Source: a virus. Taken from it: 64,000 nt of DNA. Below, piece by piece: positions 2,372 to 14,333 of the stretch. A program made the position numbers and the translations under genes. Numbering within the stretch: position 1 is the stretch's first letter; each line of letters starts with the position of its first letter. The stretch covers positions 1 through 64,000 of the IMG/VR virus record IMGVR_UViG_3300048927_000250; one strand, given 5' to 3'. The notes beneath the pieces were generated by a model. That model was given only the letters and a program-made list of their open reading frames with translations. It was not told where the DNA came from and ran no database searches.

Positions 2372-3304
2372 ATGTTAGAATCCATGAACATGTCCGGAGG
2401 AGCGCAAGCTAACTACTTCCCTAACTCTGGACCCGGAAATAAAACCCTGGCCGCCGGGGATGCCACGCACGGATATTTCGGTACAGTGACCACGACCGAC
2501 ATGTTCACAGCCTCCGAGGTTGATAGCTTCCTGGTAGGCTTGACCGGGACCGCGTACGGCCCTTCTGATTTGGTCTGGCACAAATTCGTGCTTGACGGTA
2601 AATTCCTTTTTGTGCCCAATCGGGCTTTCCGTTCCACAACGTGGAACAACATTTATAATGCATCGTTGATGTACGGCGTGGATGGAAACGGTGCCTACCC
2701 GCCTGCCGCCGGTGGCGTCAATCAGTTATACCAGGTGAGTAAGAAAGTCGGTGGTCGTACCTTCGGGTTTAAGGTGCGTACCGTGAAAGGAGGGTTAACT
2801 GACCCACTCTCCGCTTTGAGTACCGCCGATGCTTCCGAATACAACCGACTCCTGATGTCGTTGACGACCGGTAAGTTCGGGACGATGACGATAGCGCAGT
2901 TGGACCTCAACGTCTACGAAGAGACACAAACAACGTATTCGGCGAACACTAACAACAACTGGGTACGATTCAATACGGCTTCGGCGCAAACTAACAAAAC
3001 GGCAGCGTACAATTGGCGACCGGTGTTGGAACTGACCAGTACGGGTGAAAGTCTGGTTGCCGCCATGAACGTGGCGATGCGAAACACGGTGTTAGGCGAG
3101 CAAGCGAAAAGTGGATACCTGGGCGACCTTGACGTGATATCCGCTGCCACGCAGATTGTTCCGACACAACCACCGGTTAACAGTTACCCGGATACCGGTG
3201 TTGGTAGTGGGCTCTACGCAACCTTAGTTTCGGCCAGTACCGTAGTTTCCCAGAGCAATAACTGGTCAGCTGCACGCGGTACCGCCACCTACGTAACGGA
3301 GTAA
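2372..3304 (+). CDS. Structural paralog 1 (block A, position 1)
   Basis: 310 residues, first of six tandem paralogs. It starts MLESMNMSGG without a fibronectin-like domain. It then carries the shared domain: SGPGNK...GYFGTV near residue 20-40, WHKFVLDGKFLFVP near 70, an IYNASLMYGVDGNG segment, and a W-x-PVLEL signature near 215. About 88 extra residues follow. Its closest partner by eye is the gene at 5168, which has the same N-terminus and the same layout with a C-terminal extension. Likely a virion surface or adsorption protein (fibre or decoration), judged from neighbouring fibre genes. No catalytic motif seen. Confidence 0.6.
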   Translation: MLESMNMSGGAQANYFPNSGPGNKTLAAGDATHGYFGTVTTTDMFTASEVDSFLVGLTGTAYGPSDLVWHKFVLDGKFLFVPNRAFRSTTWNNIYNASLMYGVDGNGAYPPAAGGVNQLYQVSKKVGGRTFGFKVRTVKGGLTDPLSALSTADASEYNRLLMSLTTGKFGTMTIAQLDLNVYEETQTTYSANTNNNWVRFNTASAQTNKTAAYNWRPVLELTSTGESLVAAMNVAMRNTVLGEQAKSGYLGDLDVISAATQIVPTQPPVNSYPDTGVGSGLYATLVSASTVVSQSNNWSAARGTATYVTE

Positions 3305-3309
3305 TAACG

Positions 3310-4275
3310 ATGGGTAACAAACTCTCTTGGGTAAATAACAACGCCCTGGCAACGAACGTGGAGATTTACCGTTCACTGACCCCGCTGGATACCGCAAACT
3401 TGTCTAACCCACTCATCACCCTGACCAATGGGGAAACGGCATGGGAAGACACGGGTGTTGTCTACGGGGCCACGTACAACTACGTGATTCAGATGGTCAC
3501 GAAAGACGGCTCTCAGAAAGCACCCACGCGAAACATTGTAATGCAAACGGGACTCGGGCGTGGTCTGGGGCCGAACCTCCTACAACAAGGTGATGAACGT
3601 CTGGGGTACTTCGGTTCCATCGCCGCCACCGATTTTATCCCCGCTGCCACCCTTCAGGCTTCGCAAGCCGGGTCCGGGTTGTCGGTCAGTGGAACTGCGA
3701 CATGGCACAAGTTCGTCCGTCGTGGGAAAATATTGTACGTACCCAATACGTACCTGAGTTCCGCGGTCACCATGACGCAACTTTATCAGGCTGGTTGGGT
3801 GTTCGGTACAGACGATAACGGCCCAACCGACGGACAGTTGAGTACGGCACAAAACCAGCGCCGGGTAGTCAGCTATCGCGGTGACCGGTACTTCCTCCGT
3901 CTACCGCGCGGGTACGCTGACGCCGATAACGCCAACCAGTACGACCTAAGTAATACCACCGGTCTGAATCACGATAACGTGGCGAACACCCCTGAGTGCG
4001 AGTTCAACGACCTCTTCTATCCAGTGGTCCAAAACACGCCGTTGAAACAGCGCCTGTTCAATGTGGATAGCATTACCGCTGCCAACTTCGTGGTATCCAG
4101 TACTCGTGCAGTGCTGTGCCAGGAAGTGAGCGTTTCGAAAGGGGCGATGTTATCGCGCGGTAACTCGAACGGGTTGACGGGAAGGGACATCATGACGTAT
4201 ATGCAAGCGATTCCCACTGCCCGTGCCGCATCCACCTTGCTTTGGTACCCTGTTTTAGAGCTGATAGAGGATTAA
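3310..4275 (+). CDS. Structural paralog 2 with fibronectin-like N-domain (block A, position 2)
   Basis: 321 residues, starting five bases after the previous stop. Residues 1-80 look like a fibronectin type III-type beta sandwich (LSWVNNN..NVEIYRSLTPLD, then YNYVIQMV). The shared domain follows: LGPNLLQQGDERLGYFGSI, TWHKFVRRGKILYVP, VFGTDDNGP, ending LLWYPVLELIED. It pairs best with the gene at 6437 (both have NDL-YP---P--QRL-N and end WYPVLEL). Probably a tail or capsid surface protein; Ig/FnIII domains on phage virions often bind host glycans weakly. Confidence 0.6.
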   Translation: MGNKLSWVNNNALATNVEIYRSLTPLDTANLSNPLITLTNGETAWEDTGVVYGATYNYVIQMVTKDGSQKAPTRNIVMQTGLGRGLGPNLLQQGDERLGYFGSIAATDFIPAATLQASQAGSGLSVSGTATWHKFVRRGKILYVPNTYLSSAVTMTQLYQAGWVFGTDDNGPTDGQLSTAQNQRRVVSYRGDRYFLRLPRGYADADNANQYDLSNTTGLNHDNVANTPECEFNDLFYPVVQNTPLKQRLFNVDSITAANFVVSSTRAVLCQEVSVSKGAMLSRGNSNGLTGRDIMTYMQAIPTARAASTLLWYPVLELIED

Positions 4276-4278
4276 TGA

Positions 4279-5157
4279 ATGGCCATCAAACTCGATTGGA
4301 AAGACCTCTCGCTTAAAGGTTACACCGGGGTAAACATTTACCGTAATGCCGGTAAGTTCGACATGAGTCAGGCGTTACCTGCTCCACTGGTGGCGAACCT
4401 GGCGGCGAACACCGTTACGTATACCGACACCACCGCTGTGAAGAACACATCGTACAGCTACCTCATTGCCGGGGTAAAGGACGGTAAGGTTACTGGTGGT
4501 GTACCGTTCACAGCGGGGAACTACAACGACACCGGACCAGGCCCCACTACCTTAGCCCGAGGTGATTGGTTCTGTGGGTACTTCGGTGAGGTGAGCAGTG
4601 CTGACCTCTTTACCACCGGCGACATCAAAACCCAAATCCCGACTACCGCCGGGATGACTCTGAATACCATCAGCACCTGGTACAAGTTCATCTATAACGG
4701 GAAAATAATCTTCACCCCGGGAATTTCTATCGGTACGGTATCCTGGTTTGCCGTCTATGCCGCTGGACTAATCTACGGTACCGACGACAACGGAAATGTA
4801 CCTTCAGGCGCTAACCCTAACCCCACACCTAAAAATCAGATGGCAAGGATGACAAAAGGTGGGTGGAGTTTTATCTTCAGAGCGCCAAAAGGGGTTGCTG
4901 CCGCAGTTAACTCCCAGGTCGCCCTCTGGGCGAATACCGAAGTACTGGAGATATTTGACCGAATGTATCTCAACAACCCTGGTACTTACGGTAAGGGGAG
5001 GTTCCTCGACCTACCGGTTGTCGCAGGAATTTATACCAACAACTGGTTTGCGAATAACGTGGTCGCAATAATGGCACCGCCATCAGGACTAACCAGCAAC
5101 GTACCAACCACGGCATTCAACAACTGGGTACCGGTGCTGGAGCTTGAATTCCTCTGA
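4279..5157 (+). CDS. Structural paralog 3 with fibronectin-like N-domain (block A, position 3)
   Basis: 292 residues. The ATG at 4279 follows AGAGG and the previous stop by three bases. The FnIII-like N-domain (GVNIYRNAGKFD, SYSYLIAGV) is followed by NDTGPGPTTLARGDWFCGYFGEV, TWYKFIYNGKIIFTP, IYGTDDNGN and the C-terminal signature NNWVPVLELEFL. It is closest to the gene at 7404 (both carry DTGPGP-L-RG-W--GYFG). This ends the first three-gene block. Confidence 0.6.
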   Translation: MAIKLDWKDLSLKGYTGVNIYRNAGKFDMSQALPAPLVANLAANTVTYTDTTAVKNTSYSYLIAGVKDGKVTGGVPFTAGNYNDTGPGPTTLARGDWFCGYFGEVSSADLFTTGDIKTQIPTTAGMTLNTISTWYKFIYNGKIIFTPGISIGTVSWFAVYAAGLIYGTDDNGNVPSGANPNPTPKNQMARMTKGGWSFIFRAPKGVAAAVNSQVALWANTEVLEIFDRMYLNNPGTYGKGRFLDLPVVAGIYTNNWFANNVVAIMAPPSGLTSNVPTTAFNNWVPVLELEFL

Positions 5158-5167
5158 GGGTAGCACC

Positions 5168-6421
5168 ATGCTCGAAATGATGATGGGTGGGTCCGGAAGA
5201 GTCTACCCTTGGTCCGGGCCCGGGAACAAGAAGTTGAAGTTCGGTACCCGCGACCTCGGGTACTTTGGGGAAGTTACACAAGCGGAATTGTTTGGTAACG
5301 ATGAAGTCTGGGGGATGGTTAAGCCTGCAACCGGAACCAAGAACAATGCTACCCTGAATGTTTGGTTGAAGTTCATTCTGGATGGGAGAGTGTTGTACAC
5401 GCCGAAGTACCCGATTACAATGGGGACTAAGTGGGAAGACCTGTACGCCGCCGGAGCCGTATACGGGGTTAAAGGGAATGGGGATGCGCCGGTACCGGCG
5501 GGCGGTGCGGTTGACCAGTTCAGGATGGTGACAAAGATTGAAAAGATTGTCGGAGTCAATAAAATCTGGCCGTTGAAGCTTCAATTGATGTCCGGGGCCA
5601 ATAGCCTCATCAACTCCACCAATGACTGGGCGAGTGACCGCTCGGAATGGGACCGTCTCTGGACACCGTTCTTTGCGCAGAAGTGGGAAACCTACGGCTG
5701 GCAGGAAATGAACCAGGGGTACATCAACCGTCTTGCTACCATCAAGGAACGAAATGGCGACGGGACGAACTACGGTACCCGTGGCGGGAACAACACTATC
5801 GCACTGAAGAACTACATCGCGATGAACACCACGTCATCGTCGATAAGTTGGCGACCAGTGTTGGAACTCATTAATGACCCGAACATGGCGCTAAGTCCAT
5901 ACCTTCCTTACTTCGCAGTAAGTGGTGGACAGAAGAACTTCTTCCCGGTCTTTGATGATGACGGCGTAGCGCCACTCAAAGGCGTCGGTAACGTCAGAGG
6001 ATACAATTCCCATCAGTTAGGTGTCATGCTCGGTTTCGACACAAAGACCGAACAAGTCTGGTTGGAACCGTCTACTGGGAAACAAGTCCTGACCGCTGAC
6101 TTCACCGACACCAGTGAACTCGTCCCTCTGCGCAACATGACGCTCCGTAACAGTGCTATGACACCGCAAGTGGTGAATGTGCAGACAGGTCGCGAGGAAG
6201 TGTTCGTTAACGTCCCTCAAGCCACCGTGACGCTCACCGCAGCCGTAGAGACTGTAGATGCCGGGTTAATCTCTCCGCAGCGTGTGGTGGCGATAAGGAC
6301 CGCACAGCAGCCTATCCTGGATTATACGGTAAAAGGATACGAAGGTTCCGTTGACTTCTCCAACAGCGCGAAACAAAACGCACCATCACCAACCTTTACC
6401 ATCGAAGCCGATGGGACGTAA
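5168..6421 (+). CDS. Structural paralog 4 with long C-terminal extension (block B, position 1)
   Basis: 417 residues. The ATG at 5168 is preferred over one at 5144: it has GAGGG upstream, and its product (MLEMMMGGSG..SGPGNK) aligns with MLESMNMSGG..SGPGNK of the gene at 2372, while 5144 lies inside the previous gene. It lacks the FnIII-like domain. The shared domain ends SISWRPVLELIND near residue 235. About 180 further residues follow (YFAVSGGQKNFFPVFDDDG and a beta-rich tail), roughly twice the extension of its partner. Likely a virion surface protein; the extension may be a separate binding or polymerisation domain. Confidence 0.6.
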   Translation: MLEMMMGGSGRVYPWSGPGNKKLKFGTRDLGYFGEVTQAELFGNDEVWGMVKPATGTKNNATLNVWLKFILDGRVLYTPKYPITMGTKWEDLYAAGAVYGVKGNGDAPVPAGGAVDQFRMVTKIEKIVGVNKIWPLKLQLMSGANSLINSTNDWASDRSEWDRLWTPFFAQKWETYGWQEMNQGYINRLATIKERNGDGTNYGTRGGNNTIALKNYIAMNTTSSSISWRPVLELINDPNMALSPYLPYFAVSGGQKNFFPVFDDDGVAPLKGVGNVRGYNSHQLGVMLGFDTKTEQVWLEPSTGKQVLTADFTDTSELVPLRNMTLRNSAMTPQVVNVQTGREEVFVNVPQATVTLTAAVETVDAGLISPQRVVAIRTAQQPILDYTVKGYEGSVDFSNSAKQNAPSPTFTIEADGT

Positions 6422-6436
6422 TAGAACGAGGCCACT

Positions 6437-7399
6437 ATGTTCATTGACTTGAGCTGGACAGACCTGAACAGCGTAGCAACCAAGCTGGAGATTTTTCGTG
6501 GAGATGCACCACTTGACCGCCTAAACCTCCCGAGTACTCCAATTGCCACGCTTACTAACGGTGAGACGTCGTACCGCGACGAGTCTAACATTCTTCTGGG
6601 GAAAGACTACTACTACGTGTTCGTGAACACCACGGCCACTGACCGCATCGTGTCCCAGAACTACAAAATCAACGCCGTTACCCGTCGTGGCCCCGGTCCA
6701 CAGAAACTGAAACAGGGTGACAACAGTCTCGGGTACTTTGGGACCATTCAGTCCGGTGAGTTCGTTAACGGTTCCGAGTTCGTTGATTTAACCGGCGTGA
6801 AGAACTTTGCGTCAGGGGTAGCGGTCTTGAACCCGTTCCCGATTTGGCACAAGTTCGTTCGTAACAACAAGGTGTTGATTATTCCAGAGGGACCCATTGC
6901 CAGCACGGCAAGTTGGTTACAGTTGTACCAGGCAGGGATGGTTTACGGTACGGATGACAACGGTCCGATGCCACCTGCCGCCCCAGTAAAACAGTCTGCG
7001 AAAATCACCATCGGTAAGGATGTTTTTCGTGTCCGCTTGCTTAAAGGGATGACGGACCAGGCCTATACGGATTACCCCGCCACCGTACTGACCCCTAACG
7101 AGTGGAACGACCTGGTTTATCCACTGGGTCATGCGGTGCCCGCTGACCAGCGCCTGGAAAACATTTATCTCAACGGGAAGTCGACCTCTGCTATCTGTGG
7201 TGCGGGCAATACGAGCGGGTTCAGCCTGGTCCAGGAACTCGCCACGATTTCGTCAGCCAGCGCCCGCGGACAAGCCGTCAGCAATGACGACACCGCCGCC
7301 GACACCAGCGCGTACATCGCCTCCCGCACTACCGTAACAACCAGCTCAGCGAGTGCTTCGTATTACTGGTACCCCGTGTTAGAATTGGTTGAGGGTTAA
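6437..7399 (+). CDS. Structural paralog 5 with fibronectin-like N-domain (block B, position 2)
   Basis: 320 residues. FnIII-like N-domain (LSWTDLNSVATKLEIFRGDAP, YYYVFVNTT), then GPGPQKLKQGDNSLGYFGTI, IWHKFVRNNKVLIIP, MVYGTDDNGPMPP and the end signature YYWYPVLELVEG. Best partner is the gene at 3310. It keeps the block order seen in the first triad, which is the main evidence that three genes were duplicated together. Confidence 0.6.
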   Translation: MFIDLSWTDLNSVATKLEIFRGDAPLDRLNLPSTPIATLTNGETSYRDESNILLGKDYYYVFVNTTATDRIVSQNYKINAVTRRGPGPQKLKQGDNSLGYFGTIQSGEFVNGSEFVDLTGVKNFASGVAVLNPFPIWHKFVRNNKVLIIPEGPIASTASWLQLYQAGMVYGTDDNGPMPPAAPVKQSAKITIGKDVFRVRLLKGMTDQAYTDYPATVLTPNEWNDLVYPLGHAVPADQRLENIYLNGKSTSAICGAGNTSGFSLVQELATISSASARGQAVSNDDTAADTSAYIASRTTVTTSSASASYYWYPVLELVEG

Positions 7400-7403
7400 T
7401 GTC

Positions 7404-8318
7404 ATGTCTATTCGTATCGCCTTTACTAATCCTAATAATGCTGACACCATTAAGGTTTACCGCGCAACCAGTAAAATTGAGTTGTCAGCCCTTCCTGACC
7501 CAATCGCCACCTTAGCGGGAACAGCCACATCGTTCTCTGATGTTACTGCTGCGCGTAACACCGTGTACTATTACGTTATCGGTAGCTACAAGGGTGACGA
7601 CGTCATCTTCACGCAGAACCAACAATACGGTTACTTCCCGGACACCGGTCCTGGACCGTCTAAACTGTTGCGTGGGAACTGGAACGAAGGGTACTTCGGA
7701 ACCTGTACGCAAGCTGAATTGTTTGCCGCGCAAGAACTGTGTACCGCGTTAGGTTACGTCCCCAACGGTGCGGTCAACACCACGGCGTCCAATGTCTGGC
7801 ACAAGTTTATCCTGGATGGGAAAATCCTGTTTATCCCGGATTTATGTATGGCAGCAGATGGTTGGTTATACATCTACCGCGCTGGCTTGGTGTACGGGGT
7901 AGACGGTTACGGGGACCGCCCGGCGTCGTTTTCTGGTGGTAACTACAACCAAAAGAAAACAGTGACTAAGAACAACCGTACCTACCTGGTCCGCCTCATG
8001 AAGGCCACTGCTGCGCCAACGTCGGAGCTGGTGACCGACCTGACGAATGGCGACGCACGCTGGGGTGAGGGTGAGTGGAACCGCACGATGGGACGGTTGG
8101 GTTGTGGTACGTACAACTTTAGTACGCGCTCACGCCTGGGTAACAAACCGGTATACAGCACCAATAACACCCTCTTCACCGGTGCCTTGACGCAGCACAT
8201 GACGGCTAACGGAACCATCGTTCAAATGTTCGCCACGCTTGCATCAGATGTGCCAAGTACCGTGGCCTGGTCCAGTAACTACTACAACTGGCGTCCCGTA
8301 CTGGAACTCCAACTGTAG
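7404..8318 (+). CDS. Structural paralog 6 with fibronectin-like N-domain (block B, position 3)
   Basis: 304 residues. The ATG at 7404 has GAGGG eight bases upstream; the TTG at 7389 is inside the previous gene. FnIII-like N-domain (ADTIKVYRATSKIE, YYYVIGSY), then DTGPGPSKLLRGNWNEGYFGTC, WHKFILDGKILFIP, VYGVDGYGDRP and YNWRPVLELQL at the C-terminus. Partner of the gene at 4279. It is the last gene of the adsorption module and is followed by convergent terminators. Confidence 0.6.
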   Translation: MSIRIAFTNPNNADTIKVYRATSKIELSALPDPIATLAGTATSFSDVTAARNTVYYYVIGSYKGDDVIFTQNQQYGYFPDTGPGPSKLLRGNWNEGYFGTCTQAELFAAQELCTALGYVPNGAVNTTASNVWHKFILDGKILFIPDLCMAADGWLYIYRAGLVYGVDGYGDRPASFSGGNYNQKKTVTKNNRTYLVRLMKATAAPTSELVTDLTNGDARWGEGEWNRTMGRLGCGTYNFSTRSRLGNKPVYSTNNTLFTGALTQHMTANGTIVQMFATLASDVPSTVAWSSNYYNWRPVLELQL

Positions 8319-8693: not shown

Positions 8694-9096
8694 CGAAACG
8701 CGGGTCGTGATTTTCTTCAGCCAGTGTTGCAGGGATTGCTTGCACTGGTTCAACCGGGATACTAAGGTTTGCATAGGCTGCCTCGTCGTGTTCAATTTGA
8801 CGCTTCTTCTCAGCAGACATGGTCGAACGTACCAGCTCTGTCGCCATTTCGCTTTTATAGTACATGCAAATGGAATTGTTCGCCTTGCTCCGTGGACCGA
8901 AGTTCAGCACCCACAAGTTCCCTTTACGTTGCTTATTGACAGAGATGCAGGACACGTCGCGCAAATCAATCGACGCCGTACCTCCCAAATCGTCATTGAC
9001 GCTATAGTTGAAATCCACCACCTTTTCCAGGTAGCGTGATTCCATACTGATGCCACACATCTTTAACAGTGATGGTGCCCCAGAGATTTCATCCAT
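8593..9096 (-). CDS. Hypothetical protein
   Basis: 167 residues. The ATG at 9096 overlaps the stop of the DHH gene by eight bases (ATGGATGA), a typical coupling. Residues 1-130 look like a normal soluble protein with a small beta-rich part (YLEKVVDFNYSVNDDLGGTASIDLRDVSCISV). The last 30 residues are arginine-rich and overlap the next gene, so either the overlap is real or the reading frame ends differently. No family recognised. Confidence 0.5.
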   Translation of the reverse strand: MDEISGAPSLLKMCGISMESRYLEKVVDFNYSVNDDLGGTASIDLRDVSCISVNKQRKGNLWVLNFGPRSKANNSICMYYKSEMATELVRSTMSAEKKRQIEHDEAAYANLSIPVEPVQAIPATLAEENHDPRFDGESHPRGNGYWRVLLRRLFGRVRERTHNERVD

Positions 9097-10054
9097 TCTC
9101 AGCCTCACTTGCAGCATGAAGTTCTTTGTTAGCATCGAAGAGCATGGCAGCAAGTGTTTCCGGCGTAATGGCGAAAAACAGCTCCACACCTGCCGCGTTC
9201 GCATGACCACCCCCGCCCAGCTTCTCAGCCAGAAAGCGGACGTTATAGTCTTTTGAACGCAGTGAAACCATCGACCCCATTTTACGATGGAAATAACAAG
9301 CAACCACGTCATATGAATCTTTGATGCGGTCGCAAAGTTCCGAGGTAATAGGGCGGTGACAGTTCACGACAGCCATCTTACCTGAATCGCCAAACGGCCA
9401 TTCGGTCAGACAGTTATCGAGGTGGAATTGAATCTCGACATCTCGTTTTTCCTTCAACGCTTCTGAGGCTTCTTTCACGCCGAGGTATGCCGTGGCACCC
9501 ATGGTCGAGGAGAAGACACCGTCGTTAACCACGCCAACATCGTCGATTAAACGGTTGAACTCAGAGAACGGTTTGTTGAGGAAAAGGATGAAGAACTCGT
9601 AGAAGTCCCGCGAGTCTGGAAGTTTGAACTGCCAGAGGTCACGGTCTTGTACACAAGCGAGTACATAGGGGAGCGGTGTGTCCGGGTACAGATGCGCCCA
9701 GGTCAACCCTGCACCAGAACGTGTTCCGTCTAATGTCAGCTCAACATTAGCAGCACGGAGCACGGCTTGAAACTCTGGGCAGTCCGCTTTTGCATACGCG
9801 TCAACCATTGACGCATGATGGTCGAGGATAACAACGCGAGCAGGCTCTAACTTCGCGAGGTTACTGATTTCCTCAGGCGGTGGTGCAAAATCAACGAAGT
9901 ACAGCGTATCGCCCTGGCCAACTCCTTCTAACGGCAGCGGGGAGTTATAGTGGACTGGTCGGTAAGTTGCGCTCGGTAACGCACGCCACAAAGTTGCAGC
10001 GGCGGCAAATCCGTCGATGCACAGTGCGTGATAAAATACAAAAAAGTTATTCAC
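9089..10054 (-). CDS. DHH-family phosphoesterase
   Basis: 321 residues. N-terminal DHH domain: YHALCIDGFAAAATLW (metal-binding Asp near residue 14), FVDFAPP and LDHHAS near residue 80. The C-terminal DHHA1-type domain ends with GGGGHANAAG, the glycine-rich substrate-binding motif. Family members (RecJ-like, oligoribonuclease NrnA, cyclic dinucleotide phosphodiesterases) hydrolyse phosphodiester bonds in short RNAs, ssDNA or cyclic dinucleotides using Mn ions. The size and lack of extra domains fit NrnA/oligoribonuclease-like enzymes, so nanoRNA recycling or removal of host signalling nucleotides are both possible. Substrate is not readable from sequence. Confidence 0.85.
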   Translation of the reverse strand: MNNFFVFYHALCIDGFAAAATLWRALPSATYRPVHYNSPLPLEGVGQGDTLYFVDFAPPPEEISNLAKLEPARVVILDHHASMVDAYAKADCPEFQAVLRAANVELTLDGTRSGAGLTWAHLYPDTPLPYVLACVQDRDLWQFKLPDSRDFYEFFILFLNKPFSEFNRLIDDVGVVNDGVFSSTMGATAYLGVKEASEALKEKRDVEIQFHLDNCLTEWPFGDSGKMAVVNCHRPITSELCDRIKDSYDVVACYFHRKMGSMVSLRSKDYNVRFLAEKLGGGGHANAAGVELFFAITPETLAAMLFDANKELHAASEAENG

Positions 10055-10087: not shown

Positions 10088-10366
10088 TTAAACGGATAGG
10101 AATTGCTTTGAAGAATCGCGCAGGGCCAGAACGTTAAAGTGACCGCTGCTAATTGTGTTAATGATGAAGAACGCATCCTCAGGCTCCTCTATTATTTTAT
10201 CGCAGTAACGTCTCGGAGTACGGCGAGTGAATCGTGCTTTCATGGAGCGCGCGCACTTCTTTATTTTCCGAGCATTACCATTATTAAAATGATAACAGAG
10301 GGTGATGGTTGAGAGGAAATCAATTATCTCTTCCACTTCCTGATAGTCAAAGTTATTCACAGACAT
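10088..10366 (-). CDS. Hypothetical protein
   Basis: 92 residues, basic in the middle (NARKIKKCARSMKARFTRRTPRRY), acidic at the start. Not recognised. Located 33 bases upstream of the DHH gene in the same direction; probably one transcript. Confidence 0.6.
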   Translation of the reverse strand: MSVNNFDYQEVEEIIDFLSTITLCYHFNNGNARKIKKCARSMKARFTRRTPRRYCDKIIEEPEDAFFIINTISSGHFNVLALRDSSKQFLSV

Positions 10367-10431: not shown

Positions 10432-10677
10432 TTACCACCGCCGTTTCTTACCCGGAAGATTCCAGCTGGTACCGTTCGAACGGTTAGGGTTTCCGCGCAG
10501 TAGCGCCACCCGTAGGTTGAACATGGGGTCCTTTTTAGCCTGTTCCTCCAGTTTTTGCTGGCGCACATAACGCTGCACTAACTGGTTCGCCACCTGCTTT
10601 ACCTTGTCGCTCACCGGGTCTGGACCCTTCTCAGTGGTGAGGGTGGTAAGTGGTAAATGCTCTTCTTTATTTTCCAT
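10432..10677 (-). CDS. Hypothetical protein with shared basic C-terminal tail
   Basis: 81 residues from the ATG at 10677 (MENKEEHLPL), which overlaps the upstream stop by 11 bases. Mostly helical (DKVKQVANQLVQRYVRQQKLEEQAKK). The C-terminus SNGTSWNLPGKKRRW follows the N-x-x-GT-x-x-x-P-x-K-RR pattern found at the ends of the three next upstream genes. Function unknown; the tail could be a targeting, packaging or nucleic acid-binding signal. Confidence 0.65.
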   Translation of the reverse strand: MENKEEHLPLTTLTTEKGPDPVSDKVKQVANQLVQRYVRQQKLEEQAKKDPMFNLRVALLRGNPNRSNGTSWNLPGKKRRW

Positions 10678-10951
10678 GTTTACGGTGCCCCTTCTTGCGG
10701 TCTGGTACCGGGTAGGCGAATGTCCCATCCGGATTCGTTTGATAATGACGCCGGGAGTTCTGCGGCATCTTGTCTTTTTTACCTAACCATACAAAGCTCA
10801 TCTTTTCCTCCTTCGATTGCTTTTCTTCAATAGCCGAGATAAGTTCAATAACCTCCGACATCGACATATATTCGATGGCGTCGAGTATCAGTTTCTTATC
10901 GACGACCGAACTTTTGTTTTGCTCGTGGGAAGACCATCGTCCCTTTGGCAT
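10667..10951 (-). CDS. Hypothetical protein with shared basic C-terminal tail
   Basis: 94 residues from the ATG at 10951, which has AAGGAG upstream but overlaps the previous gene by 56 bases. An internal ATG at 10801 has an even better ribosome site (AAGGAGG, six-base spacing) and would give a 44-residue protein in the same frame; both may be used. The C-terminus NPDGTFAYPVPDRKKGHRK matches the tail of the gene ending at 11771 (NNAGTMAWPAPKQRRGRR). Function unknown. Confidence 0.6.
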   Translation of the reverse strand: MPKGRWSSHEQNKSSVVDKKLILDAIEYMSMSEVIELISAIEEKQSKEEKMSFVWLGKKDKMPQNSRRHYQTNPDGTFAYPVPDRKKGHRKHGK

Positions 10952-11771
10952 TGGTAACCAACTCCTTGCGTTGTTTGCCGTTCACCGTGATGTCACCATT
11001 GACCCGTTGACGCGCTGAACCGAAGGTGTTAAGTAGACTACGGCAACCAGGACTGGAACCGAAGGGGTCAGGGATATCCAACGTTACCGCCTTCACCCCA
11101 CCGTCAAGTTTATCAAGCGAGCGCTTTAGACGCGCACTTGGTTCGTTGGGTCTAATCTCGTTCAGGTACTGACATTGAACGTCCCGGTCAATGGGGTCCA
11201 GTGGCAGGTCGACGTCACGCAACCAGTTAGGTAAAGAGTCAATCTCAACGTTCAGTGCATCGGGGTGACCCTGACGACTTTTCACAACGCCGTACGAGAC
11301 AACCTGTCCGTCAATCATACGCGGCGAGATACTGATTTCGACGTCGGCTTCTTTACGACCCAAGCCTAACTCGTCAAATTCTTTATTCCAGTCTGTCGGG
11401 GTCGGTGCCCGCATCGTAAGAACCTTGAAGCCCGCCGGTTCATTGGCCATCCGTGCTTTAATGCGGTCAAAGAGTTCCTGACCATGGTGATGTTTAGCGG
11501 CGATGTCAGGGTAGTCTGGCATCCGTTCGGCCATCTCAGCCATCATGCGAATCTTCTCTTCACTAAGATGCGGCGCAATCATTTTCAGGAATTGGGCGAA
11601 GTTAGGAATCTGACCGTTGGGGAACAGTGCTGCGTTGGCGGAGACCTTACTGCCATCGAGAGCCCGCTCTAGCGCCGCTTCTATTGCGTCGGGCGAGTAG
11701 CTTACCCCATTGCGATTAGGAACGTTGAGTGAACCAATATTCAACGATACGCCTTTATCTTTCTTTTCCAT
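10896..11771 (-). CDS. Hypothetical protein with shared basic C-terminal tail
   Basis: 291 residues. The ATG overlaps the upstream stop as TAATG. Helical N-terminal half (SPDAIEAALERALDG, EEKIRMMAEMAERM) and a mixed C-terminal half. The last 28 residues (NGKQRKELVTNAKGTM then VFPRAKQKFGRR) align with the end of the next upstream protein (DGRRELMMNNAGTM then AWPAPKQRRGRR). The bodies of the two proteins differ, so the tail looks like a module. No family recognised. Confidence 0.7.
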   Translation of the reverse strand: MEKKDKGVSLNIGSLNVPNRNGVSYSPDAIEAALERALDGSKVSANAALFPNGQIPNFAQFLKMIAPHLSEEKIRMMAEMAERMPDYPDIAAKHHHGQELFDRIKARMANEPAGFKVLTMRAPTPTDWNKEFDELGLGRKEADVEISISPRMIDGQVVSYGVVKSRQGHPDALNVEIDSLPNWLRDVDLPLDPIDRDVQCQYLNEIRPNEPSARLKRSLDKLDGGVKAVTLDIPDPFGSSPGCRSLLNTFGSARQRVNGDITVNGKQRKELVTNAKGTMVFPRAKQKFGRR

Positions 11772-12124
11772 TATCTTCTTCCTCTGCGTTGTTTGGGTGC
11801 AGGCCAGGCCATAGTCCCGGCGTTGTTCATCATCAGTTCGCGACGGCCATCACTACGTAAACGCTTACCTTCTACCGGCGAACCTAGTTCAGCAATACAG
11901 TCTAAGTTCTCGACCTTGCTGCGTAAACCCCGGGCATACTCCTCAGTATTGGGGAAGAGCCCTTGACTGTGACGCAGTTCCCTGAGCAACGCCCCACCAA
12001 TACTCCCCATCCCAGCCCCAAGAACGACCACCTTCCGTTCCTTAGGGTCAATAACGAATGGGCCTTTCTCCCCGTTTTTAATCGCATCTTTTAACGGGTC
12101 GAGCCAATTCTCTTCTTCGTCCAT
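11771..12124 (-). CDS. Hypothetical protein with shared basic C-terminal tail
   Basis: 117 residues. Two ATGs lie side by side (12127, 12124); the second is better spaced from GGAGG. N-terminal half acidic, then KVVVLGAGMGSIGGALLREL, a Rossmann-like glycine pattern (GxGxxGG) that may be chance in so short a protein. Ends with the shared tail NNAGTMAWPAPKQRRGRR. Confidence 0.65.
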   Translation of the reverse strand: MDEEENWLDPLKDAIKNGEKGPFVIDPKERKVVVLGAGMGSIGGALLRELRHSQGLFPNTEEYARGLRSKVENLDCIAELGSPVEGKRLRSDGRRELMMNNAGTMAWPAPKQRRGRR

Positions 12125-12140
12125 CATTCCTCCAATGAAA

Positions 12141-13485: not shown

Positions 13486-14061
13486 TTACTTTCCTTCGGT
13501 CAGTTGACTTATCATGATTTCCCTGATAACCCGACGAACCACCTTGAGGAATTCCAAAAACACCTCTTGGTCGAGCAGTGGGTTTTCAACGATTGTTTGG
13601 TATCCCCCGTCGGTGAACGTGCCAACGAGAGTGCCGAGTGTTCCGTAATCACCGGGAACAAAGACGGCAAAACCATCTCCACCATCTGGCGTAACGTAAT
13701 AGACGGCGATGTACACCGCGCCCGCCGTAAACACACGAACAATTGTCGCGTTTAATGATGTCAGGTAGTCTGGACGTATATCTACCTTCCCCTGAAACTC
13801 ACTTAAGTTCTTCTTCAGAATGTCGCGAGCAGTGAACGGGGAGATGAGCGCATGGCGAAGGTCATCTCGCCACGGGCTTACCCAGTTCAGGATTCCGGAC
13901 AACAACGTGTGCGAGTTGCGACCACGATGACCGCAATGCCTGCAACGTATCCGGAACTCACCTTGTTTGTACGAACCCAGGATTTGCAAGTTGGTCGAAT
14001 TGCAGTCCGGGCACGGCGTTAAGGTGAATTGACTAGGCGCTACTTTACGTCGAATTAACAT
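13486..14061 (-). CDS. Zinc-ribbon protein
   Basis: 191 residues. N-terminal zinc ribbon with CPDC (residues 18-21) and CRHC about 20 residues later. A longer body follows with a beta-rich segment (VYIAVYYVTPDGGDGFAVFVPGDYG) and a helical C-terminus. The ribbon resembles those of small phage anti-restriction or transcription-linked proteins, but no full family match is seen. First gene behind an early-type promoter at 14090-14105. Confidence 0.6.
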   Translation of the reverse strand: MLIRRKVAPSQFTLTPCPDCNSTNLQILGSYKQGEFRIRCRHCGHRGRNSHTLLSGILNWVSPWRDDLRHALISPFTARDILKKNLSEFQGKVDIRPDYLTSLNATIVRVFTAGAVYIAVYYVTPDGGDGFAVFVPGDYGTLGTLVGTFTDGGYQTIVENPLLDQEVFLEFLKVVRRVIREIMISQLTEGK

Positions 14062-14162: not shown

Positions 14163-14333
14163 TTAGATTTTGCAGGCACCACCCTCGCATTCATCGTCGC
14201 CAGGTTTGTACTCAACTTCCGGCGGACGGTCAGCTACTGCATCTGCATGGGCAGCCGCTTGCTCCAGGACCTCGTCCGGGAGGTTAAACTCACCGTCAAA
14301 CAAATCGTCATCTTTTTTGGCAGGTGTAGACAT
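14163..14333 (-). CDS. Small acidic hypothetical protein (56 residues)
   Basis: Starts MSTPAKKDDDLFDGEFNLPD and ends GDDECEGGACKI, strongly acidic, with a C-terminal Cys pair (C-x4-C). AGAGAAAAGG lies before the ATG at 14333. It lies in what would otherwise be a 340-base gap. Small acidic phage proteins often bind host enzymes or mimic DNA; that is speculation here. Confidence 0.6.
   Translation of the reverse strand: MSTPAKKDDDLFDGEFNLPDEVLEQAAAHADAVADRPPEVEYKPGDDECEGGACKI

Follow-up and report, generated by a model that had tools for sequence, protein, structure and literature searches.

Genome setting of the locus

Four neighbouring genes of a jumbo phage have been proposed to encode proteins that differ in their bodies but share a basic C-terminal tail, and the question raised by this locus is whether they do so and what such a tail would be for. 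The window, which is the whole stretch of DNA analysed, comprises 64 kb of a virus record that is 215,418 bases long. The query stretch is 94.5-95% identical to the Erwinia phages PhiEaH1 and vB_Ea277G (277G) of the genus Iapetusvirus. The PhiEaH1 records have, at several places, annotated genes for PhuZ, chimallin ('nuclear shell protein'), and beta-type RNA polymerase, so the window phage is a jumbo phage of the nucleus type.

All four genes, numbered here 4 to 1 in the direction of reading, are on the minus strand. They are flanked on one side by a DHH phosphoesterase gene (9089-10054) and on the other by genes without assigned function. In Klebsiella phage FBKp24 the interval from the DHH phosphoesterase to a small protein with the C-terminus CEGGACKI is occupied by different genes, so the four-gene stretch looks like an accessory region. 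Scans for promoters and terminators in the sequence gave results at chance level only.

Several neighbouring features were recorded. Adjoining the DHH phosphoesterase gene is a 92-residue protein (10088-10366, minus) with a Pfam match to DUF7740 (E 9e-10); FBKp24 gp288 (locus L047, 15772-16020) is in the equivalent position. A 191-residue protein (13486-14061, minus) has an N-terminal zinc-ribbon-like CPDC...CRHC (phrog_1474, E 1e-5). A 56-residue protein (14163-14333, minus) ends DDECEGGACKI, and its last residues are common to FBKp24 gp284 (SDDCEGGACKI; locus L047, 17544-17726); this ending is possibly a second conserved C-terminal peptide. The virion structural proteins encoded side by side at 2372-8318 (plus; PhiEaH1 annotation) resemble one another at their C-termini, with scores up to 62, and are probably ordinary paralogues.

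Three of the four products share a C-terminal tail

The genes and their tails are as follows.

11771..12127, minus: gene 4, 118 residues, or 117 from the second Met, preceded by a strong Shine-Dalgarno GGAGG; body KVVVLGAGMGSIGGALLREL..., tail ...GRRELMMNNAGTMAWPAPKQRRGRR
11774..11857, minus: C-terminal tail module of gene 4, from HMM matches (leave-one-out E 2.9e-8)
10896..11771, minus: gene 3, 291 residues, with an N-terminal NxNGxxY motif; tail ...QRKELVTNAKGTMVFPRAKQKFGRR
10899..10985, minus: C-terminal tail module of gene 3, from profile matches (leave-one-out E 1.4e-5)
10667..10951, minus: gene 2, 94 residues from the ATG at 10951; a helical hairpin like the N-terminal domain of L7/L12, then the tail
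10682..10768, minus: C-terminal tail module of gene 2, from profile matches (leave-one-out E 0.002)
10432..10677, minus: gene 1, 81 residues; proposed fourth tail ...SNGTSWNLPGKKRRW, a member by no profile

The coordinates and tails are as first described, and the loose regular expression matches exactly these four of the 673 open reading frames in the window; a corrected loose pattern was swamped by chance matches. The products of genes 4, 3, and 2 have a common basic C-terminal peptide of about 28 residues, with profile matches that extend to the last residue or close to it. In pairwise Smith-Waterman comparison of the last 32 residues, the three score 66, 57, and 43, where shuffled sequences average about 18; none of 2000 shuffles attained these scores, and the best score for shuffled C-termini from the window was 39. 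With leave-one-out HMMs, each of the three is the best match outside the training set among 1479 segments.

In the case of gene 1, whose product is 81 residues from the ATG at 10677 or 98 residues from the ATG at 10728, the end scores 19, 19, and 26 against the other three tails, which is at the level of shuffled sequence. It was not recovered by the three-tail HMM over the whole genome, and it is at 0.0 bits and rank 117 with the 18-member family profile. Its spacing between GT and P also deviates (GT-4-P, with no N-x-x-GT). Gene 1 is not part of the tail family, and the proposal of a shared terminal module on unrelated bodies therefore stands for three proteins rather than four.

When the last 32 residues are cut off, there is no similarity among the four proteins, so these are not homologues along their whole length. 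The bodies of genes 4, 3, and 2 have relatives in PhiEaH1 and 277G only, and none beyond these in the IMG/VR or GTDB genomes; the N-terminus of gene 3 is similar to pEt-SU gp103 (z 6.1) and has a short match to SXP01. Pfam has no name for any of the tail proteins, and NCBIfam and PADLOC gave nothing useful. The only match of the gene 3 body to a prohead protease, over 29 residues (phrog_17354, E 0.059), is not significant, so the idea that the NxNGxxY body is such a protease was set aside, and the AlphaFold2 model of gene 3 (pLDDT 35) is unusable. A PDB profile search with the tail found only 'NPDGT' repeats in designed proteins, which are an artefact. At the protein level the tails are identical in the window phage, PhiEaH1, and 277G, which are too close for a rate test; the PhiEaH1 substitutions within them, two in gene 3 and two in gene 2, are all silent.

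Presence of the tail in other jumbo phages

The tail is conserved in other jumbo phages. A tblastn search with the gene 4 tail gave a match at E 0.3 reaching the last residue of gp039 of Kosakonia phage Kc263. This protein in turn has matches, each to its own C-terminus, in Serratia phages Sureiya and Yubaba and in OBP, N1M2, SXP01, pEt-SU, and Survivor (E 7e-4 to 4e-11). Among these relatives the tail is the best-conserved part, and seven tails of this type have 12 invariant columns of about 30. Profile searches added further tails in pEt-SU at 119.5 kb (8e-6) and SXP01 at 163.2 kb (5e-4), and a second tail protein in Survivor. Small downstream proteins of OBP, pEt-SU, and SXP01 end GK..AWPVP[KR].(K)G.R. 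Tails were also found where the phage had contributed nothing to the profile, three in Erwinia phage AH04 (1.9e-8, 4.4e-7, and 0.0021), one in PCH45 (E 3.1e-7), and one in SPLA10 at 131.8 kb (E 0.004); in PCH45 and SPLA10 there are about 10 residues beyond the motif before the stop.

The total is 22 tail proteins in 12 phages, or at least 19 in the 11 phages besides the window phage. There are three each in the window phage, pEt-SU, SXP01, and AH04, two each in OBP and Survivor, and one each in Kc263, N1M2, Sureiya, Yubaba, SPLA10, and PCH45. Often there are several tail genes in a genome and often these are adjacent, with some copies unlinked. The tail was not found by the family profile in FBKp24, Centimanus, Moabite, Totoro, Eowyn, PhiKZ, EL, Desertfox, or FLC9.

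At the stop or close to it, the tails have the core N-[GS]-R-[QR]-x(5)-G-K-x(1-3)-[WYF]-P-x-[AP]-K-x-[RK]-x-G-x-R. The N-x-x-GT that had been taken as the signature is not what is conserved across phages, which is N-[GS]-R-[QR] ... G-K ... [WY]-P-x-[AP]-K-x-R-K-G-x-R.

The link between the window tails and the OBP-type tails started from the tblastn match at E 0.3, and it rests on the exact C-terminal position and on profiles in which the window tails are partly included. When built from the three window tails only, the profile had no match in 11 other jumbo phages, while the enlarged profile led to SPLA10 and PCH45. With a profile of the OBP-group B tails alone, gene 2 is at E 0.029 and gene 4 at E 3.4, and gene 3 is not among the matches listed. 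The one PHROGs family found to end in the tail is PHROG 38783, of unknown function; the C-terminal third of its profile aligns with the tails of AH04 gp152 (E 0.005) and of one Survivor protein (E 0.003). This is a body-plus-tail family rather than a description of the tail itself, which appears to be undescribed in the family libraries searched.

Tail genes are paired in four of the phages of the OBP group:

L073 2371-3597, L074 2386-3641, L072 2455-3370, and L093 5211-5590: paired tail genes of OBP-group phages (OBP, pEt-SU, Survivor, and AH04)

In OBP, pEt-SU, and Survivor a tail protein of 240-333 residues is followed by one of 66-85 residues, with the genes close together, and in AH04 two short tail proteins (60 and 65 residues) are close together. 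A stretch like K-V-A-I-[IV]-G-G...I...L is present ahead of the tail in PCH45 (L102, 111-842), SPLA10 (L085), SXP01 (L075, 2302-3291), and gene 4; the likeness between SXP01 and SPLA10 is significant (z 7.8). A body common to gene 4 and the SPLA10, SXP01, and PCH45 proteins (K-V-[AV]-[IV]-[ILV]-G...IG..L) was considered, these being alike by eye, but the alignment is not significant.

Overlap with the start signals of downstream genes

The end of the gene 4 tail coincides with a translation signal.

11774..11785, minus: last four codons of the gene 4 tail (AGA GGA AGA AGA), which are also the Shine-Dalgarno of the next gene

These codons encode RGRR and read AGAGGAAGAAG ahead of the ATG at 11771, which itself overlaps the gene 4 TAA (TAATG). 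The start of the 94-residue form of gene 2 is likewise within the gene 3 tail. It could be argued that the tail is a by-product of such overlaps, with the purine-rich Shine-Dalgarno or start of the downstream gene forcing basic codons at the end, and the remainder being due to chance or recent duplication. The coincidence at gene 4, and the presence of TAATG both there and at Kc263 gp039, would fit this. The overlap can bias the last residues towards basic ones, but not the first twenty of the tail, and it cannot explain the rest of the gene 4 tail or the GRR of gene 3. Genes 3 and 2 retain the part of the tail upstream of any Shine-Dalgarno, the conservation spans about 28 residues, and the motif is also present in genes without overlap, such as AH04 gp145, where the next gene is 2 bases further on. 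Plain duplication fails since the bodies are unrelated. As an account of the tail, the overlap is thus highly improbable.

An L7/L12-like stretch in gene 2

Ahead of its tail, the gene 2 product resembles part of a ribosomal protein, and there are alternative starts for this gene.

10820..10897, minus: stretch like the N-terminal dimerisation domain of L7/L12, 26 residues, 14 identical to E. coli
10667..10801, minus: possible short gene 2 product, 44 residues from the ATG at 10801 behind AAGGAGGAAAAG; almost only tail

Residues 19-44 of the 94-residue product form an ungapped alignment with E. coli L7/L12 (KKLILDAIEYMSMSEVIELISAIEEK, 14/26 identical), and the score of this alignment was attained by none of 5000 shuffles. 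The Pfam family PF16320 matches gene 2 at 16.8-18.6 bits, under the curated cut-off of 25, with E 0.0015 to 0.0055 against Pfam; over the whole genome gene 2 is the only place matched by PF16320 (E 9.5e-4, 17.3 bits). In a phmmer search of the PDB with gene 2, the six top matches are all L7/L12, at E 0.023 and up. For this part AlphaFold2 predicts a hairpin of two helices, at residues 16-27 and 31-47, to be compared with residues 3-30 of L7/L12; pLDDT is about 87 for residues 21-40, but overall confidence is low (pTM 0.29), and Foldseek with this model found no match. The stretch is probably an L10-binding N-terminal domain of the L7/L12 kind.

The gene 2 product is like bL12 (L7/L12) in this domain only, which scores below the Pfam cut-off and is not followed by the L7/L12 C-terminal factor-binding domain. 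There is no Pfam match past the N-terminal stretch, and the tail is in the place of that domain. In the tail, the model is only faintly suggestive of a small hairpin at N-P-D-G-T (pLDDT about 75, with two isolated bridge residues, 72 and 78), beyond which there is the invariant proline and then the basic end. No ribosomal domain was found in the other tail proteins.

The start of gene 2 is uncertain. The start annotated in PhiEaH1 is the ATG at 10867, which would give 66 residues and has no visible Shine-Dalgarno. In the overlap of genes 3 and 2, two PhiEaH1 substitutions are silent in gene 3 and alter gene 2 (VV to AA). The long and the short form of gene 2 may both exist.

What the tail may do

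One C-terminal module on many unrelated bodies, in several copies per genome and with conserved positions that are not basic, is the pattern expected of a docking tag. It is somewhat more probable than not that the tail is such a tag, bringing accessory proteins to one partner. The basis for this from the present analysis is the module itself, its position at the stop or no more than about 10 residues from it, its presence in 12 phages, the fact that a genome may have several copies, and the lack of relationship between the bodies; from these patterns we infer both the binding of a partner and selection for that binding. In phiKZ/OBP-like jumbo phages, this C-terminal tag of about 28 residues would be carried by accessory proteins that evolve fast and are otherwise unrelated, and would bring them to one common partner.

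The tail had been suggested to be a sorting signal, for packaging into the virion among other destinations. As a packaging tag it would place small proteins for host takeover in the head as this is assembled, from where they would enter the next host along with the DNA. The T4 internal proteins (IPI-III and Alt) have an N-terminal capsid-targeting sequence that is removed by the prohead protease. There, as here, one short terminal peptide is common to several unrelated, fast-evolving products of neighbouring genes; the basic ends could also hold DNA, and there are several copies per genome, some of them unlinked. However, the T4 signal is N-terminal and cleaved, while all of the tails found here are C-terminal, and the PhiEaH1 records call these genes hypothetical, not virion proteins. 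Packaging is considered unlikely, though it is the least unlikely of the alternatives. Direct binding of nucleic acid, with no specific partner, would fit the last dozen positions, which are rich in basic residues, and a G/K/R-rich end like that of ribosomal proteins, but charge is far from accounting for the conserved N-G-R-Q, G-K, and [WY]-P, and this explanation is improbable.

Import into the phage nucleus had also been suggested, and here the signal could be specific to this clade, being recognised by an importer or shell of the phage itself. Chimallin is encoded by the window phage, SPLA10, and PCH45 in the searches made here, OBP and EL are listed as encoding it in a core-genome paper (PMC10299810), and there is a weak profile match in pEt-SU (E 0.0017). 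These searches are not sensitive enough to class the OBP group, as the single-protein search missed EL, and the profile found EL (1.6e-4) and, weakly, pEt-SU, but not the other seven OBP-group phages. Five phages with chimallin matches (PhiKZ, Moabite, FBKp24, Eowyn, and Desertfox) have no detected tail. The PicA/Imp1 pathway likewise sorts particular proteins in related jumbo phages, but its cargo in PhiKZ has no terminal motif in common and is recognised through a folded surface (PMC11087766, PMC12908238). With only three tails in the whole window genome, the RNA polymerase, UvsX, and DNA polymerase genes are without one. A general import signal is disfavoured by the folded-surface recognition and by the five tail-less phages, and a clade-specific one is about as doubtful as nucleic-acid binding.

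If the tail is a docking tag, a first and tentative guess, held at clearly less than even confidence, is that the partner is the host translation machinery. This is because gene 2 pairs the tail with a likely L7/L12 N-terminal domain, and the ribosome in particular is suggested by the basic end, by published jumbo-phage proteins directed to ribosomes, and by phage bL12 domains. PhiKZ014 (PMC10914614) and Churi gp335 (PMC11849849) are jumbo-phage proteins that go to host ribosomes, as is guessed here for the tail proteins. PhiKZ014 clamps 5S rRNA at the central protuberance (PMC10914614), and PhiKZ is among the phages in which no tail was found. The bL12 domains encoded by other phages are described as retaining the residues for uL11 and elongation factors (PMC6375957), whereas gene 2 has no L7/L12 C-terminal domain. 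The gene 2 product could sit on the L10 stalk base as the L7/L12 dimer does, and in it the tail would take the place of the domain that calls the elongation factors. The boldest form of this proposal is of a conserved C-terminal recruitment code of jumbo phages, in which one tag would be attached to many unrelated accessory proteins, among them a truncated L7/L12 mimic with the tag in exchange for the elongation-factor-binding domain, and phage proteins would so be recruited to the host ribosome stalk; this is a speculative suggestion and, as a whole, improbable.

Implications

Most jumbo-phage genes are without assigned function. A docking tag would group orphans of the same genome by their common partner, and would give a single bait with which to identify this partner. 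Were the partner the ribosome, the phage nucleus, or the virion, each of these would tell when and where the orphans act. If the proposal for gene 2 is true, phages would have in its L7/L12-like product a new means of altering translation.
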